Shown: in pieces, positions 13,370 to 24,200 of the stretch
How positions within the stretch are numbered: position 1 is the first letter of the stretch
How the letters are laid out: the number at the start of each line of letters is the position of its first letter
Notes under the pieces: model-generated
What the model was told of the DNA's origin: nothing
What the model saw: only the letters and a program-made list of their open reading frames with translations
Databases searched by the model: none
Made by a program: the position numbers and the translations under genes
Assembly: GCA_026874595.1 (NCBI GenBank)
Contig: CM049318.1
Location: 3,037,741 to 3,101,740 of the forward strand
Length of the DNA: 64,000 nt
Source: Sipunculus nudus
Lineage: Eukaryota > Annelida > Sipuncula > Golfingiida > Sipunculidae
Direction of reading: 5' to 3'

Positions 13370-14250
13370 CTATAAATCCAGTACAGTCGTACTGCGCTCT
13401 CTGTGTGTAATAAAATTTACTACAGAATTCTTTACACAGGACATATTTGCATACATGTTTAAAAACCGTTTTTGGAGTATATCAGTAATTGGTTTAAAGC
13501 CGCTAATCCGGTACACAATATCTGTATGTGAATTTCTAGGAAGTCCCCATACTCTACGTATAGCCATTCTATACATTGTGGACATACGTTCTATTGACTT
13601 GTTATTAAGACACCACGTTAGACATCCGTAAAAAAACAACAAAATTTGTGGATAAGTACATTCAAAGAAACTGATGAAAGAATTCCGAAATTCGCCTTCA
13701 ACTTATTAACCGTGAATATAAAATCACCCCTTTTTTCTAAACATATCTACGTAATCAGTTAAATCATAATCCAAATATACACCCAAATGACGAACATTTT
13801 CTTTCCATTTCAATTTGATATTAGTTAACTCGAGTTCGGGACATGAACATGGTTTCCTGCTGAATATTATACAAGTAGCCTTTTGGCATTATATGTAACT
13901 TTGTATTCCTGGCCAAATTCTACGCAAATTTTAATAATTTCTTGTAATCCATTCCGGGATGGACTTAAAAGTGTAACATCGTCCGCATATACAACAGCTC
14001 CCGCAAAATAACTTCCAGCATAACATCCTACACCCTTTTCCTTCAATCTGCCCACTAGTACATCCATGTAAACACTAAAGAGCAGCGGGGATAATATATC
14101 GCCTTTTCTCAATCCGTTGGACACAGAAAAGTAATTTGAAAGCTTGCTTTTCCATCTCAATACATGCTTTTTGTCTCATATACATATCCAGTAACAGTCG
14201 AATGATAATAGCAGGTACTTTTCCACTTTCATAGGTAAACGCCTAATTAT
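13370..14250 (-). pseudogene. LINE (non-LTR) reverse transcriptase relic
   Basis: Read right to left, 14160-13867 gives SNYFSVSNGLRKGDILSPLL, then FSVYMDVLVGRLKEKGVGCY and the catalytic VVYADDVTLLSPS, typical RVT_1 motifs of non-LTR elements. Continuing, 13866-13650 has KENVRHLGVYLDYDLTDYVD, and 13642-13370 has the thumb and post-RT region with LTWCLNNKSIERMSTMYRMA and RRVWGLPRNSHT. The endonuclease is not visible. Internal stops are present (for example near 13730). The family is in the broad CR1/Jockey/RTE range; I cannot place it more exactly. Upstream (14160-14390) there are possible further RT residues but no continuous frame. Confidence 0.85.
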
Positions 14251-15216: not shown

Positions 15217-15809
15217 TCAGTTCAAGAATCCTCCGTTACACACCACAGCAGTTACAGTAGGGCCAAAGCTGTATGTTTTATGACAAGCGCGGCACATGGC
15301 CCCACTCAGTGGGGTGTCAGTTTCACCCCTCTGAAGCAGAGCTTGTTGCCCAGCAATAGGACTGCATAAACATGGCCACCCTATGAGAACGGACTGTTTC
15401 GGTGCAGGTTTAAATTCATCCTGCAAGTTGATGTGTACAGCATGTGTATGGTATGTGTCACCTGGGTAGGCCAATTAATCACCCTGTCAGAAACGTGTAA
15501 ACAGTGCCAGTATGTCAGAGCTCTGTTCTTACTACTGCCCATTTTTGTGTTGCTAGGGGACCGAGCAAGAGTGACATTTATGGTCATATGTAAGTTAAAA
15601 TTTCTCTTGAATCTGCATTTTTGCAGGATTCATTTTAACATATAATAACATTTTGTCAATATCAGAAAGAAAAGCAATTATACTATAAGTTAATTAATTT
15701 AAAACATAATTTTTTATATTTATTTACCATTTTTTCAAACGAAACATTTCTGGTGAAAAATTCTATTTATATATATGTATATGAATACATATAAAATGAT
15801 TAAATATTA

Positions 15810-15812
<3 letters not shown>
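15217..15812. other. No identifiable gene
   Basis: Overlapping short open frames on both strands (15217-15474 minus, 15433-15645 plus) have no recognisable motif. The segment becomes AT-rich toward the TA array. Confidence 0.5.
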
Positions 15813-15844
<32 letters not shown>

Positions 15845-15931
15845 CTTCATTCTAACCACATTCACCTGATGATCGGGTCGCATCCCGTGAAACAGACTGT
15901 TGTGAATTAACAGTGTTGTTTTTCTTCAGAG

Positions 15932-15973
<42 letters not shown>
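15813..15973 (+). mobile_element. TA-flanked short element with hammerhead-like core
   Basis: A 90-base unique segment sits between (TA)n at 15813-15842 and (TA)n at 15932-15973. It contains CTGATGA at 15866-15872, a short hairpin (cggg, loop tcgcat, cccg) and GAAAC at 15889-15893, the order of the hammerhead ribozyme core CUGANGA, helix II, GAAA. An ACTGTT/AACAGT helix follows. A related copy is at 51090-51248. Helix I is weak, so activity is doubtful. Such motifs are known from Penelope-like elements and retrozymes; the link here is inference. Confidence 0.5.
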
Positions 15974-15979
<6 letters not shown>

Positions 15980-15984
15980 GTATT

Positions 15985-18900
15985 ATGAAAATGGATGGAT
16001 CTTTAGATTTTCATGTAGCCTTTGTGACCCAACTCTGCAGAGTTTGTAGAAACGAATGTCAAACTTATAAAAAAAAAAACAAAAGTACAAGCCTTTTTAA
16101 TATTCTGATAACCAGCAAAGGATAATAGTTACCTTTGAAATAGATGTGTCACTTGATCAGGCTGATACACATTCTGATCATCTCTGTAGAAAATGTTATA
16201 TCAAGATGTTCAATAACAAAAGAGACTCTTCAAATTCAGTTAAAAAAGGCTAGCTAACCATAAAATTGCATAAAGTGTTAATAATAAATGGCAGGCTCAT
16301 AAACAAGGGTTAGAACATTGCTTTACTTGTAACCAATCTGTTCAGCAGCAAAAGACAGGAAGGCCTTCTAAAATAAAGCAAGGAGCCCCTAAAAGAATTC
16401 ATAATGATCTACAGTTCAATCACAGAAAATCAAATATTTTTTAAGTTCACACTCCGCTGAAGTAAAATTCAGCAATGTTTTGATAACTGGTATGACTGAA
16501 CAACAAAAAGAATTATATATATTTGTGCAATCTGTGATGAAATATATTTTACCCATTCTCTAGCAGGACCATGTAGTCACTAGTTATGATCTGAGTGTCT
16601 CAGTGAGATATTTTGTAAACCTCCCTCAAACAGTGTGAAATGTCCGGTATGCATAGCCAGCTAAGATTATTACTCACTAAACTTTGCAGACCAAAGGATT
16701 GGGCAGCAACTTTTAATGTTACAACTTCAGTGAAAATATGTAAGAAAGAAATAGCTGCAACAGCCATAAGTCAACACTCATGCGAATCTGAAAAAAGTTG
16801 GAGCAGGGTCTAACAAAGAATCTCATCTTTCAACATTTATCTCAAACTCTGCTGAAATATGTCACACCATTTCTAAACCGGTCACACCTAAACCCAAAAA
16901 CAGAACAGAAAAATAAATGAGAGTGAAACATCAGTACCACCAGCTGTAATAGACGTCTCCAGGTTTAATGCCGATGACGTTTGCTGACAGCGTGAGCAAG
17001 GGCATGCAAGAAACACCAGTCCAAGCTGAACACAAATTATTCACCTGTCAGGCAAAGCGAATGCTAAAGTTGCGAAAGTTTTCCACTGAAAAGGGCACAT
17101 TCCGATGCAGGAACAGACGTGGTGAGGTAACCTATATCAAATACAGATATTTTTCTATACTGAAAGATAGTTTTGGCGTATTTCTTTCCTGAAAATGAAA
17201 TACTATGTAACCACTCCTTATATTTTGCAACCAATATTGATACATAGATCTATTGTGCCACGAAAGTCTACAGAGAAAGCACCTAGTGAGCTCGTTAAGA
17301 AAAGGGCACGGCTATTGGTAAAATAAGAGCAACCATATCCGAATCAACAGGAGATTCAATTACATTACATCAAGTTGCTGCACTGAAAAAGCTCAGTCAG
17401 GAGACAAGAAGAGATATGTGTGGCAGAGCAGGGGTACCGAATGGTCTACTTCTGAATAGGTACTCCAGTCTAGCATTAAAATCCAGCCTTGGCCTTTCCT
17501 GGGGTCAAATGAGAAAGCATAAAAGGTACGTTCCTCTCAATAAATATATTTTCTATATTTTTCTATTATATTTTCATCCCTAAAGTTTAACATGCTTTTA
17601 ATGACATAAAATGTATCTTTCAGTTTATGAAAAAGGCAGGTGTTCAGGCGGAGAATGAGCACAACGAGCGTGCTGCCAGAAACGAAACCGTGGGTGAAGA
17701 GCTTAAAGGGAACTTGGTGACCTTGGTGAAACGGGAAAATAAGCACCCGGAACGAGACCAGAAAGGCTTGGTGGAAAAGGAAATTCCCTTTGTGTATGTT
17801 GGGGATATTGCGGGTTTTGTCACGGACCTACTGGATAAATACAAAAGGTATTTATATTTGCCCTTATATCAATGTATATTTCACTGACAAACAAGCCAAT
17901 TAGTGCAAGATGATCTTATATTGTGTTTTTTTTTAATATATTCTCAATCATATCTGTCCTTATATATTGACACTTTTATCTAGGTCATGTGTATGAATAG
18001 ATTTGTTTATCTTTTCAGGAATTATCAACTGGGCTGGAAACTGAATAAGGTGCCAGAAAATGAAATATGGGTTAAATTGGTGGAGACCAGGGAGGTGGTA
18101 CAATGAAGTACACGTTGCAAGTACTGAACCAAGGAGAGCCTAACGCTCAAAAATATACATTTTAAGTTATCTGCTTTGAGGCTCAAGATTTCTTTGAAAA
18201 TCAGCGGCGAACTATTGCAACAATGATAAATGGCATGACTAAGCTGAGACAGATGTCTTTGAGGTGAGTTATTTACCCAAGTACACATACACATATATGT
18301 ACATATGCTTATTAACAATCTTCATTTTAAAAAGGGATACTGTTACTCACTTGAACTTATTTTGCCCAGTTTCCTGTTGATAAATAACATTATAAATTGC
18401 ACTAGACAGTTTATTTACGGGTCCCAAATTCAATCAAGGGACATTATATTGATATATAAATATATTATATCTTAAAAAAAATATCTTTTTTTTTCAGTGG
18501 TAAAAGTCTTCGACTGTTTCTTTACGGCGATTATGACTTTTTAGGCAAAGTGTATGGCCTCTCCAGACCACATGGTAAGTGTCATCATATTACCTACCGA
18601 TTGATCGTTTTACAATAAAAAAAATTACTAGATAAATATGTATTCATTTATATGGTCAAACGTTTTACCTTTCTCCAGGCTCATACCCTTGTCTCTGGTG
18701 TCTAATATCAAAGAGAGCAGTTCGGACCAAGCGCACACAGAGGACAATGACTTAGAGAAAACTATCATAAGTCAAGCTCAACTTTTCAGAATTGATTATG
18801 ATAGGCAGCGGAAAGAAGGTTAATGCATCAAACTTCAACAATGTTGTGCACAAGCCTCTCCTAGAGATCTTCATAAATCACGTAAGTATAGGAACTTTTA

Positions 18901-19304
18901 TGTGATCAAGATAAAGTTTTTCTCCAATACTCTTCATTCTGTATGGCTACAAGGCAAATTATATGTTATCTTACAAAGTATTCCCTCCATACCTTCATAT
19001 CCTGCTTGGAATTGTAAAAAAAAACCACCATGGCATCTTGATAAAGGAATGCTATGTAACTGATATGGCCATAGCAAAAGATATGGTTGTGACCAAATGC
19101 CCTCCAAGCAATCCGGCCATGATGCAATACAAGGAATGCATGCAAGGTGCATGCCCTGGAGGAAAATGAAGACATACGATTGGCATAAATGGAAAAGAAA
19201 AAGTGAAGAACTTGAAAGAAAAATTAATGATATGGTAAGAGTTTAATATATTTTGCATAAAAGTGCTTTACATACCCATTCAGTTCTACCTGCTCACCAC
19301 TGTA

Positions 19305-19364
<60 letters not shown>

Positions 19365-20074
19365 TTCATTCAATAGGAAAATAAGAAGAAATCTGTGATC
19401 ACCCAGACCGTACTTGGTATGAGGTTTTGCCCATAAACCAGAAGCCTAGTTTTAACTCTGCAGAGCCATGGGATAAAGGTACAAGCTTACCACAGTAACA
19501 GCTTTGTTGGCAACCATTGCAACAAATACCTGCAGGTATGTACATTATTACAAGGCACAACGGGGACACTTAGTTCAGTACTAAAGATTTATGTGTTTTG
19601 ATTTAGTTGATCGACCATCTTTACCTGTTTGATAACTCATTATAAAGGGAGAAGGCTTGATTATATACCGGCTAACATTAATCACCTTTTATAATTTCAG
19701 GAAAAGATCTACACTGACCTGTGTGACAATATGGTCAAAAAGGTGTACACCTTCACCAAAGCCATTTTTAAATAAACCAGGCTTTCCGCAATGCACAGAC
19801 CTTCAAAACGCCGAATAGACGCTTTGCAGTAGTCCACCGTATGATATCAAGTGATCGTTCAGTTACTGACAAGGAATGTGATGTCATTGGCGAGTCGAGC
19901 ATTTCCATGCAATATTATTTCTATAAATAAATTTATATTAATGGTGCAAATCTAAGCGAAAATTATTATAACATTAATAACATTAATAATGGAGAACATG
20001 GTGGAGAGGGGATACTTGCAGTCGTAAATAAGCTCAAGCGTATTTTTACGGGGAATGAGGAACCCAATGTCTAG
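15985..20074 (+). pseudogene. RAG1-like gene: N-terminal zinc/RING region plus DDE-type transposase core, decayed
   Basis: Segments by position: 15985-17525, 17624-17847, 18019-18263, 18498-18574, 18679-18881, 18978-19234, 19377-19535, 19701-20074, mostly bounded by GT and AG. The first segment has LCRVCRNE, then HSDHLCRKCYIKMFNNKRDS, then a W-x2-H-x6-C-x2-C unit (WQAHKQGLEHCFTCN). A RING-like unit follows (CAICDEIYF, PCSH, SEC, KCPVC) and a Cys/His segment (VKICKKEI, ISQH). This order parallels the RAG1 N-terminus. The core reads ENEIWVK, one lost base, GGDQGGGTMKYTLQVLNQ, then LRLFLYGDYDFLGKVYGL and, across an intron, PCLWC; later AYHSNSFVGNHCNKYLQ and GEHGGEGI. Likely catalytic residues: Asp at 18085, Asp at 18529 or 18535, Glu at 20006. 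Several stops and frameshifts make it non-functional as written. RAG1-N-type transposons (N-RAG-TP) are known from the sea hare Aplysia; kinship is inferred from motif order. Confidence 0.75.
19309..19361. repeat. (TA)n microsatellite in an intron of the RAG1-like relic
   Basis: Pure TA array lying between the segments ending at 19234 and starting at 19377, just upstream of the acceptor attcaatag. Confidence 0.95.
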
Positions 20075-20214
20075 ATTGTTATCAACAATAAAGGAACAGC
20101 ACATTCAATGTTCATCTGACCTTCAAATCCATATACCAGTTATCAAAAAGAGAAAACTACACAAGTCACGGATTAAACATTTCAGTGGAGCTTTCTTTAG
20201 AGCTGCATTTTTAT

Positions 20215-20306
20215 TCACGTATACATAGACATATATGCCTATAGATATATAGGCATATATATATGCCTAAATATATATATATGCCTATATATTGTTGTGA
20301 CAATGT

Positions 20307-20349
<43 letters not shown>
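20215..20349. repeat. ATATGCCTAT degenerate repeat and (TA)n
   Basis: From 20219 to 20295 the units atatgcctat/ataggcatat recur on both strands (partly palindromic), followed by pure TA at 20310-20349. Confidence 0.85.
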
Positions 20350-20352
<3 letters not shown>

Positions 20353-20578
20353 GTGTTTGTTCATTATTCTAACTTTGCATGTTTTTACAGTTTTATAGTG
20401 TGAAATATGAAATTTAAGCCATTCCACATTTAACCACATTTAAAGCAAATGATTTCATATAGGATGTAAAATATTTTATGATCATATTTGTATGATTGTA
20501 TCCACAGGCCATTAATTGTGTCAGCAGCCTATCATACTGATGTGTAATTTGGTACATATTTTACAGTATCATAAGCAG

Positions 20579-21222
20579 TGTTACGTGTGACTAAACTTTC
20601 AACCGGGTTCCACACACAACCAACTCAACTGAAGAAAAACTCTTTAAATGATTATATTTATAATAGACAAGTCATTATATACAATATATACAAGAATACA
20701 AAATGTTTGGTTAACATAAAAGTCTGTCCAAGTGAGACATCCATATTATAGAATACTTAGCTCAAAATGAAGTGTAGTAGGCGTGCCTCCAATCAATAAA
20801 TCCTATAGTGCGAGTGTGAGTACAAGTGCAGGTATGGGCCCTGGGGCTGCGTAGGAGCCGTTCACGAAAAAAAGTCCATCCTCAAAACACGAAACAAAGT
20901 TCAAACGTCCAAAACCAGGCCTGGCGAGCACCACAACAGTTCAAATAATAATTGCAGCCCATACGGGATGGGGCATGTGAAGCTTTTATAGCTGTACACG
21001 ACGTGACGTCGTACGGTTCACAAAAGAAACAAGTGCTAATCAATATAAAGAGTCCCATGTTTGTCTGTTGTATTCCGTGGTGTTATGCTTCAACGCCCTC
21101 CGTTCGATTGTCCCCCTGTGTTCTCCTGTGTCCTCACAACCGGTAACCTGTAGGACCCCCGACGTCATCAACGACATAAACTTGACATTTATATTTTCAA
21201 ATTGTAAAATAGGTTCGTATCA
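20579..21222. other. Possible solo LTR or mobile fragment
   Basis: This interval is less AT-rich than its surroundings. It begins tgttacgtgtgactaaac and contains CpG-bearing sequence (gacgtgacgtcgtac near 21000; gacgtcatcaacgac near 21162). No coding motif is seen. The TGTTAC start suggests an LTR, but I cannot find a partner copy in the window or a target-site duplication. Confidence 0.2.
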
Positions 21223-24200
21223 CGTTCTGTATATAATATTTTATTGATATATGGATAAGAAAGGCACTTATAACACAGTATGGTTGTTCATAGTTTGTAT
21301 AAACCCCAGTCCGAATTTAGTCCGGCCCCTTCATACTGTTTAATGTGTAGTTCAGTGCAATATATTTATGAAACACACATTGACAATAACATTCTGATCA
21401 TACCCATAATTTGCTCGGTATGTTATATAAATGTATTTAAAATTTCATCTAAAAATGCATTTTAATTTTAATTTTACCAGTTTTGTTTCACAAATCTCAT
21501 CAAATGTTGACTTTTAAATGAACTGAGCTGATGCATAATACTTTGTGCTTGTTGCTAGACAATATCTCCTTTCTCCCATGTCAAATTGAACATGGTATAC
21601 ATATTTAGATTTCTGAGAAAATTATCTTTCTACACATATATAACATGTGAGGTTTGTTGTTTTAGATGATAAGTTATTAAGGGGAAATGCAAGAAACTTC
21701 CCAGTTGATATGCTGTAAACAGGCCCCATCTATCCACTAGTGTGTAACCCGACACCCATGCTGGTTGATGTCTCTCCCTTACACTGAGTGTCTAGGGAGA
21801 ACAGCCTGCTCAGCCCATTAAAGCTCCACCTGCCTAACCGCTGTAATACGAGTACACAGAAAATGACCTAAAAATACCACTCTGACGTCATTTTTATGTA
21901 TCGTCAATACGATGGAGTTCAAGATGTTCAGCTTATTTCGCCACCGATATGCAGGAATACCATATATCCGTTCAGTCATAATTCTTTCTGAATAATATAT
22001 ATTTAATCCACACAATCTGTTGCGGATGTCAAACGAATTAACGCAATTTGTGACGTATACACATTTAGTACACAAGCTTGTCATACACGTTGCAGATAGG
22101 ATGATAACGGTGAGAGGCACAATGTGGTATTACACGGAATGTGGGAGAATAATCAGATTGCCAGAATACACAGATTGATAAATACACGTTAGTATGTCTT
22201 TATATAGAGCTTGGAATGCATACCTGGTTATATTGGTTACAAACCCATGAAAAACCACAACTATACATGTATGACTCCTACATTTAGTAGAGAATTAAAT
22301 ATACAGATTTGTCTAGGGGTTAATGTTTTTCAACTGGGAATCTGTAAATTCCATCACTTCCAGCAATGTTCGATCGCAGATCAGTCAACCAATCAGGGCT
22401 GATTGTGGGTCCAGGTATAATGTAACTGAAAGCGATACACAGAAATTCAGCGCTAAAAACAACATTAAACTCAATTTTTACATCATATTTAAGGCGCAGC
22501 GGTATCAACACGAGAAGGTTAATCGAATATCCTCTCCATGTATAAGGAATGAATAACCTACAATATATAATCTTAGCTCTCGGCCAAATCATTTATACCG
22601 TGGCGGTATCTATTTAGGAGGTTTAGTCTAAGACCCTCTTTTCCATATACGAATGCTACTTTATGCGAGTGATTTACTAACAAAGCTAAAGAGTTAAGAA
22701 TAGTCACAATATCTCCATGCATAAATCAATTTATAATACGTATAAACAGAATGAATCGTAGAGTGAGTTATACGTCTAAAGAAATGAGAAAATACTAGTC
22801 AGGTAATACATAGTGATGTCCTTATAAGCGCATATTTCAGACATCTATATAGCATGATAAGGAGGATGATACAGGACACTAACCATGTATGCCACTTTTC
22901 AGTCCATAGTATTTATCCAAGCATGATGACAATACAAAATACAAAAAGTGTCTAATAACCCATCCGAGTACCTAACACGAAACCTAGTGGTGACATCTGA
23001 AGTAAATTATGCCACACTAACATTTGCATAGTTAGACTAAACACTAAACAATACAACAACATGAGATTAACTGACAAACGGCATGTGTCGGTAACACAAT
23101 CCATTTAATCCATGGGATCATAGTAATATGCAGTTAGATAATCACGACATTAGTCTGATTTGCTTCTTAGGTCTATAAAAGTAAGTTTTAGTGCATTTAT
23201 GGAATTTTAGAAATTTATACCCATAGAGTACAGACCTCTGTCTATTAAGCTCATTATCCCGACAACATGATTTTTTCCTTTAAACAATACGTGGATCCAG
23301 ATCATCTTAAAATTTGTTTCTCATATTGTTGCCGAGCCATCTGAACATTACTTAAAAATCCGTTCATAAATTTTGAGTAATGTTTAACAGACAAACAGAC
23401 AAACAAACGCTACTCCTGTCTGATTCCATACTGAAAAAGTTTTTCGTATGGCTCATCTGAACAGTCAGAATCATGGTTTTATTTTATTTTGAAAAAAATT
23501 TAGGTGTTTTCTTTATTTGCTGCATAATGATAAAACGAACAAGTGATTAACATGAAACAAGTCAGTAGTTTATATTAAGTTCTACTATAAGACAGGCCAC
23601 ATTAGCTGATGCTTTAAGAATTCGGATTTCGATTCACACTCTAGCCAATATAACCGTATATTTTCTTTGCTATTAGCTAATATAACGCTATTGAGCGTTT
23701 GATAAAATATCAACATGTAAATTTTTATTTTAATCGAATATACAATCCGTCTATGTTTTCTGAGAAAATAAAACAACATCACGCTTTACTTTCTTCAGTC
23801 ATAAGGAGCTGTATGCCAGCGCCTTACTCCCACTCTTAAAAATGAAATGCTGGTAAAATTAATGTTTCGATGTACAACTGTAGGCACAGATATCAGTTCA
23901 TATTTTGAGATGTTAGGAAGCATTCTATTTAATAACATATTTATTTTAGGATAAGCAAAATTTTTTTTATGGGAAACAACTGTCAATTATTTTGCTTCTT
24001 TATTTGATGTATATGTATTTTTCCAATAAAAGAAGGGTAATCATTTGAAATACTTTTTTGTTAAACATTACATGGCAGAAAGAGTTGAAGTATGAACGTA
24101 TGTTGTTATAGTATAAACTATAAATTTACAATTCTGATAACATTCCGATAGCTATTGTCACGTTTCCTTAAATTATACTATCAAATACCATCAAAAGCAG

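Follow-up and report, generated by a model that had tools for sequence, protein, structure and literature searches.

A probable relic of a RING-bearing Chapaev transposon with the domain order of RAG1 in the genome of Sipunculus nudus

The forward strand of the 64-kb stretch analysed here (the window, on contig CM049318.1 of Sipunculus nudus) carries a decayed gene that belongs, with little room for doubt, to a Chapaev DNA transposon (CMC group) of the RING-bearing kind, now dead. Its transposase would have come from one spliced gene when the element was alive. Positions below are those of the window and features lie on its + strand unless stated. Chapaev is a distant cousin of RAG1, the gene behind antibody diversity, and the source of the N-terminal zinc and RING region of RAG1 is still debated. 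The first-pass annotation, made from the letters alone, had read 15,985–20,074 as a RAG1-like gene relic in which RAG1 N-terminal zinc modules are joined to a D-D-E core. That interval takes in most of the gene, but the mobile element runs from 15,244 to 21,845; and while the zinc region does match the RAG1 N-terminus in profile searches, the core goes to DUF1280 and not to RAG1. The likeness of the relic to RAG1 is one of deep homology of the N-terminus and core fold, not of RAG1 membership.

The transposase is assigned to Chapaev, and not to RAG1, RAG1L or Transib, because of its core motifs, the Pfam domain DUF1280, its CAC/GTG tips and the length of its target-site duplication (TSD). According to PMC4079192, the hallmarks of Chapaev are a 3–4-bp TSD, CAC/GTG tips and the motifs C(2)C, LH and H(4)H, and PMC3985635 equates DUF1280 with Chapaev. 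The relic core matches DUF1280 (PF06918) at E 2.2e-8 (34.4 bits; cut-off 25), and the RAG1 recombinase profile PF12940 gives no match to it at E ≤ 10. D-D-E, C(2)C, LH and H(4)H are all found in two fresher genomic copies, L005 and L006, and all but H(4)H in the window copy. The duplication is 4 bp long; at the window copy its remnants are ACAC (15,240–15,243) and ATAC (21,846–21,849), which agree at three of four positions.

The coding remnant spans about 15,991–20,153. In a three-frame translation of 15,900–20,300, every motif quoted in the first-pass annotation is present and in the order given there, though scattered over the three + frames with stops in between. A frameshifted Chapa domain, the zinc domain of RAG1 N-terminal type, occupies 15,991–16,420 (tblastn with the relatives P0003, P0001 and P0035), with LCRVC near 16,033, HLCRKC near 16,179 and W-x2-H..HCFTC at about 16,289–16,330. 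Next comes a RING finger (16,524–16,652) with seven of eight ligand positions readable and a stop at the fifth; it matches zf-C3HC4 at E 0.0016 with 18.7 bits, the cut-off being 21. A small zinc finger follows at 16,720–16,790; partly lost here (VKICKKEI..ISQH, about 16,730–16,777) and without a Pfam match for this piece, it reads C-x2-C...H-x2-C in fresher copies. Beyond a linker detected by tblastn (16,953–17,186), the DUF1280 region extends over 17,299–18,262 according to Pfam and translation, interrupted by two splice-like introns, with the first catalytic Asp in GGDQGGGT (18,079–18,102). The second catalytic Asp is in LYGDYDFL (18,520–18,543), within an exon at 18,496–18,573 that was placed by tblastn and translation. 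The CMC motifs, under the names given in PMC4079192, fall in 18,677–19,250: C(2)C as PCLWC (18,687–18,701) and LH as PPYLH (from 18,984). Finally, the catalytic Glu motif GEHGGE (19,991–20,008) and the C-terminus lie in 19,960–20,153 (tblastn, motif scan). Frameshifts and stops interrupt the reading frame again and again, and several gaps between coding blocks have GT..AG-like borders, picked by eye, so that the gene apparently contained introns.

Could AT-rich DNA have produced this arrangement by chance, as a run of open frames with zinc-like motifs? The heavy decay of the window copy might invite such a reading, and yet it is refuted and its probability is practically nil. With 22 relatives as tblastn queries (E ≤ 0.01), the matches are colinear along the stretch and occur nowhere else in the window; for example, residues 1–79 of P0003 fall on 15,997–16,235 and residues 530–750 of P0001 on 18,684–19,535. 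A RING pattern that tolerates a stop at the fifth ligand, composed post hoc after the relic had been seen, has a single match over all six frames of the window, at 16,524, and none in 60 Markov-1 sequences of window length. The fresher copies described below carry the same exon and a complete RING. Used as a query itself, a read-through of the relic retrieves 22 proteins at E ≤ 1e-3. The damaged N-terminus is far less telling: its first 265 residues find no homologue at E ≤ 10, the whole read-through reaches the RAG1 N-terminus among PDB sequences only at E 0.0075, and the joined N part has ZCCHC24_C as its best Pfam match (0.00053, below that family's cut-off), PF12560 not being listed. Shorter pieces of the relic match PF12560 at E 7.4e-5, with 22.9 bits, just below the cut-off of 23.3.

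The ends of the element were defined from genomic copies, because the 3′ tip of the window copy is eroded; further copies were sought in the assembly that holds the window (1.43 Gb, 153 contigs). A search for terminal inverted repeats inside the window alone gave nothing convincing, the true 3′ tip being hidden among chance matches. L005 and L006 share 99.0% identity with one another and 89% with the window copy, and both have intact CACAGCAGTTA tips and perfect 4-bp TSDs (TCGG and ACCT). Alignment to these intact-tipped copies sets the bounds 15,244–21,845, a length of 6,602 bp that includes a later insertion of about 600 bp (20,579–21,179) absent from L005, L006 and L007. The 5′ terminal inverted repeat, CACAGCAGTTA at 15,244–15,254, is intact at its tip; its 3′ counterpart at 21,835–21,845, placed by alignment to the copies, has eroded to TAACCGCTGTA. 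With its frameshifts, stops, insertion and eroded tip, the window copy is inactive. Outside the element, a fragment resembling a non-LTR reverse transcriptase, with a YADD motif and judged by eye, lies on the − strand at 13,867–14,175.

A second family comprises five copies (L028–L032) that are 99.6–99.7% identical and all flanked by perfect TSDs (TGCT, GGGG, TTTA, ACCT and AGAT), and a sixth member, L033, in which no exact 3′ tip was found. A third is made up of L035, with flanks TTAT and TTGT, and a shortened relative of 2,430 bp, L036 (TACT). Altogether, CACAGCAGTTA is present at both ends in 9 of the 15 loci scanned (L005, L006, L028–L032, L035 and L036); eight of these nine have identical 4-bp flanks, and in the ninth three positions of four agree. 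The TSDs and terminal repeats show that the element was once mobile, and the near-identity of L028–L032 suggests that the second family moved recently. Elsewhere, four truncated copies of the relic with similar break points lie at 20.05–20.46 Mb of contig C12, and five copies of the 3′ end at 14.60–14.84 Mb of contig C8; in both clusters the transposon seems to have been copied as part of a local segmental duplication.

The search for intact copies that the first-pass annotation had called for was rewarding: the genome holds far less damaged ones, with open first exons and a complete RING. The frame of the first exon is open for 373–414 codons in eight copies (L005, L006 and L028–L033), although in L006 the start is set apart and the exon is split by an insertion; in L035 and L038 it spans 299 and 155 codons. 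This exon codes for the Chapa domain (H..LCRVC, HLCRKC, W-PHKRG..CF.C), then for a complete RING (CPIC..CGHYFC..C..CPVC) and, last, a small finger with the pattern C-x2-C..H-x2-C or H-x1-C. The RING pattern is complete in 10 of the 15 copies fetched and was not found in L007, L034, L036, L037 and L039; it recurs in all three of the more diverged members read, L046–L048, at 36–51% identity. Two of these, L046 and L047 (contigs C5 and C11), are RING-Chapaev elements with open frames, 36–39% identical to P0035, the place on C5 having a frame of 598 codons. Among the encoded proteins, P0034 and P0035 have a RING above a Pfam cut-off, which that of P0036 does not reach, and PF12560 (cut-off 23.3) gives 25.3 bits with P0035 and 22.6 bits with P0034. 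As for the core, L005 and L006 have the full set GGDHGGG, GDYDFL, PCLWC, PPYLH, H-x4-H and GEQGGE, and L028 and L030–L032 have it in slightly varied form. The LH motif is unreadable in L029 and L033, several core motifs are missing in L035 and L038, and in L031 and L033 the blocks aligned by tblastn contain stops or changes of frame close to the first Asp.

The parallel between the zinc units and the RAG1 N-terminus has withstood scrutiny. A profile of nine sequences from the zinc region matches a solved chain of the RAG1 N-terminus at 4.5e-9, and it reaches full-length RAG1 at 1.2e-5. When hhalign compares the Chapaev relatives with the RAG1L of this genome, 71 columns align at 1.5e-10; RING and small finger follow in the RAG1 order. 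Homology of the zinc region to the RAG1 N-terminus is supported by these profile comparisons. The Chapa/RAG1 N-terminal profile also weakly matches the insect zf-AD domain (PDB 7po9_A at 0.03; Pfam zf-AD in seven of nine members at E ≤ 1), hinting that the two domains may have a common fold.

The N-terminal homology, the common domain order and the RAG1 core fold modelled for relatives of the relic are what could be said for descent from a genuine RAGL (RAG1-like) transposon or from a domesticated RAG1L gene, the more so as RING-bearing (ZDD) RAGL elements are known in molluscs (PMC7204232). We consider this very improbable. The genome has proper RAG1-like genes of its own, and they are separate from the relic: a PF12940 profile search yields at least 34 matched stretches, all above the cut-off, which are pieces and not genes and so a lower bound, and none of the 34 falls at the relic or its copies. 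Six of the loci were looked at, L040–L045 (on contigs C2, C17, C7, C11, C10 and C14, respectively). Some are full-length: L040 (994 aa) and L044 (956 aa) have open frames with Chapa, RING and RAG1 core, and the same PF12940 that misses the relic core gives 268 and 230 bits with their respective proteins. L041/L043/L045 and L042/L044 form two groups, about 97–98% identical inside each. On the + strand of L041, at 3–995 of the locus, a frame with kelch repeats and then a PHD finger converges, 3′ end to 3′ end, with a RAG1L remnant on the − strand; with Kelch at 5.3e-15, PHD at 24.0 bits (cut-off 24) and the RAG2 profile at 14.7 bits (cut-off 21), it is probably RAG2-like. No such partner was seen inside the Chapaev copy L028: nine of ten open reading frames (ORFs; at least 60 aa, outside the transposase frames) were scanned and had no Pfam match, a scan that a spliced gene with short exons would escape. 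The TSD is at odds with a RAGL origin, being 4 bp in the relic's family and 5 bp in Transib and RAG (PMC8355894). In a tree of the N-domain, RAG1L stands apart from all 15 Chapaev rows, the RING-bearing ones included (91/97, below the starred level), a weak indication given its 125 columns, 3 starred branches of 14 and long RAG1L branches.

Structure prediction gives the two cores a closer tie than sequence does. The predicted structures of two relatives, P0008 and P0001, have the RAG1-core fold, in agreement with what the first-pass annotation expected of the core, and in these models the Chapaev core appears to match that of RAG1 over nearly its whole length, although profile searches missed the match. 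In the VIA lists, the P element, ISCth4 and Hermes (both lists) and HIV integrase (one list) stand far below RAG1 and Transib; the fold comparison hardly touches the zinc part at the N-terminus of the models. P0008 and the RAG1L protein P0039 alike have a C-x2-C 19 residues past the second Asp, followed by H-x4-H and Glu. RAG1 and RAG1L are like the relic's family in having Chapa, RING, zinc finger and a core for which the same fold is predicted, and unlike it in that the cores cannot be aligned by sequence profile and that the Chapaev core is divided by splice-like introns.

Several points tell against our reading and are best taken together. The Chapaev assignment rests on motifs, DUF1280, tips and TSD and not on a tree with named Repbase Chapaev elements; the splicing of the gene is deduced from splice-like borders; and H(4)H is not recognisable in the window copy, being readable in L005 and L006. 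The core fold is a prediction for P0008 and P0001 and not for the relic protein, a Chapaev profile run against PDB sequences found no RAG1, and in the hhalign comparison with RAG1L the N-terminus was aligned and not the core. In addition, no RING is present in any of the 33 relatives from the database (by eye, only 13 keep the Chapa domain), so that the RING class rests on the present genome and on a published statement. Of these relatives, 22 came from the first search, 21 of them with PF06918, and a second search with an alignment of relatives gave 14 proteins, 11 of them new. The five named to organism are from Littorina saxatilis, Nucella lapillus, Plakobranchus ocellatus (two), all from the first search, and Haliotis asinina, from the second. 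Littorina, Nucella and Haliotis are gastropods, as is Plakobranchus on checking.

The lack of a RING in these relatives is also an argument for a Chapaev that captured its RING independently of RAG1, the common order being convergence. This concerns only the origin of the RING, is compatible with the relic being a Chapaev, and seems to us a serious possibility, if short of an even chance. RNF4 and TRAF6 score above RAG1 with the RING–zinc finger profile, which reaches vertebrate RAG1 at 3e-4, 60th of 71 matches; this ranking is weak evidence, since with a RING profile of RAG1L as control RNF4, BRCA1 and TRAF6 also rank above RAG1. Because the control shows the same tendency, we use the RING alone neither for nor against descent with RAG1. 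Against capture, the RING has the same position in both proteins with a zinc finger after it, and the profile is colinear with RAG1L over 83 columns (E 2.2e-5, probability 76%), a score that any pair of RINGs could reach. PMC4411706, which describes two Chapaev subgroups with Chapa and then RING, favours common ancestry with RAG1 on grounds of parsimony. The Chapa–RING–core architecture had thus already been described there, and the relic is a further member: it has in common with Chapaev, those subgroups included, the DUF1280 core, D-D-E, C(2)C/LH/H(4)H, tips, 4-bp TSD, Chapa and a RING after it, and we found no difference in kind, the present element having a small zinc finger after the RING.

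It is somewhat doubtful, though again compatible with our reading, that the element is a copy of N-RAG-TP of Aplysia californica, itself then a Chapaev. Both are transposon-borne with a RAG1 N-terminal-like protein, a likeness drawn from the description in PMC8355894, and the 5 of 33 relatives that are named to organism come from gastropods. However, PMC8355894 describes N-RAG-TP as N-terminal-like sequence entirely, and the present element has a core. Transib differs in having no RAG1-type N-terminal region and a 5-bp TSD (PMC8355894).

How might the element have moved? We propose that the live transposase began with the Chapa zinc domain, RING and small zinc finger, which a disordered linker joined to an RNase H core of RAG1 fold with D-D-E and a C2/H2 zinc site. 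Judging from the ends and TSDs, it would bind the CACAGCAGTTA ends; the D-D-E site would excise the element by double-strand cuts at the CAC/GTG ends, and the excised element would be joined to a target cut with a 4-bp stagger, as in other cut-and-paste DDE transposons. The common fold makes it plausible that a hairpin intermediate formed, as it does with RAG and Transib, and the RING may have served as a ubiquitin ligase.

The window copy is in itself an ordinary fossil. On one view, RAG1 arose when a Transib core was fused to an element like N-RAG-TP (PMC8355894); on the rival view, set out in PMC4411706, its N-terminal region was inherited from a common ancestor with Chapaev. Several Chapaev lineages with the full RAG1 domain order, some of which probably moved recently, appear to sit in this genome beside multicopy RAG1L. 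If that order was inherited, the full RAG1 architecture would be older than the divergence between Chapaev and Transib/RAG, and RAG1 would not have been assembled by joining a separate N-terminal element to a Transib core, a proposal that we put forward tentatively and at rather less than even odds. Having much less damaged RING-Chapaev copies and RAG1L in one genome provides material with which the origin of the RAG1 domain order may be tested.
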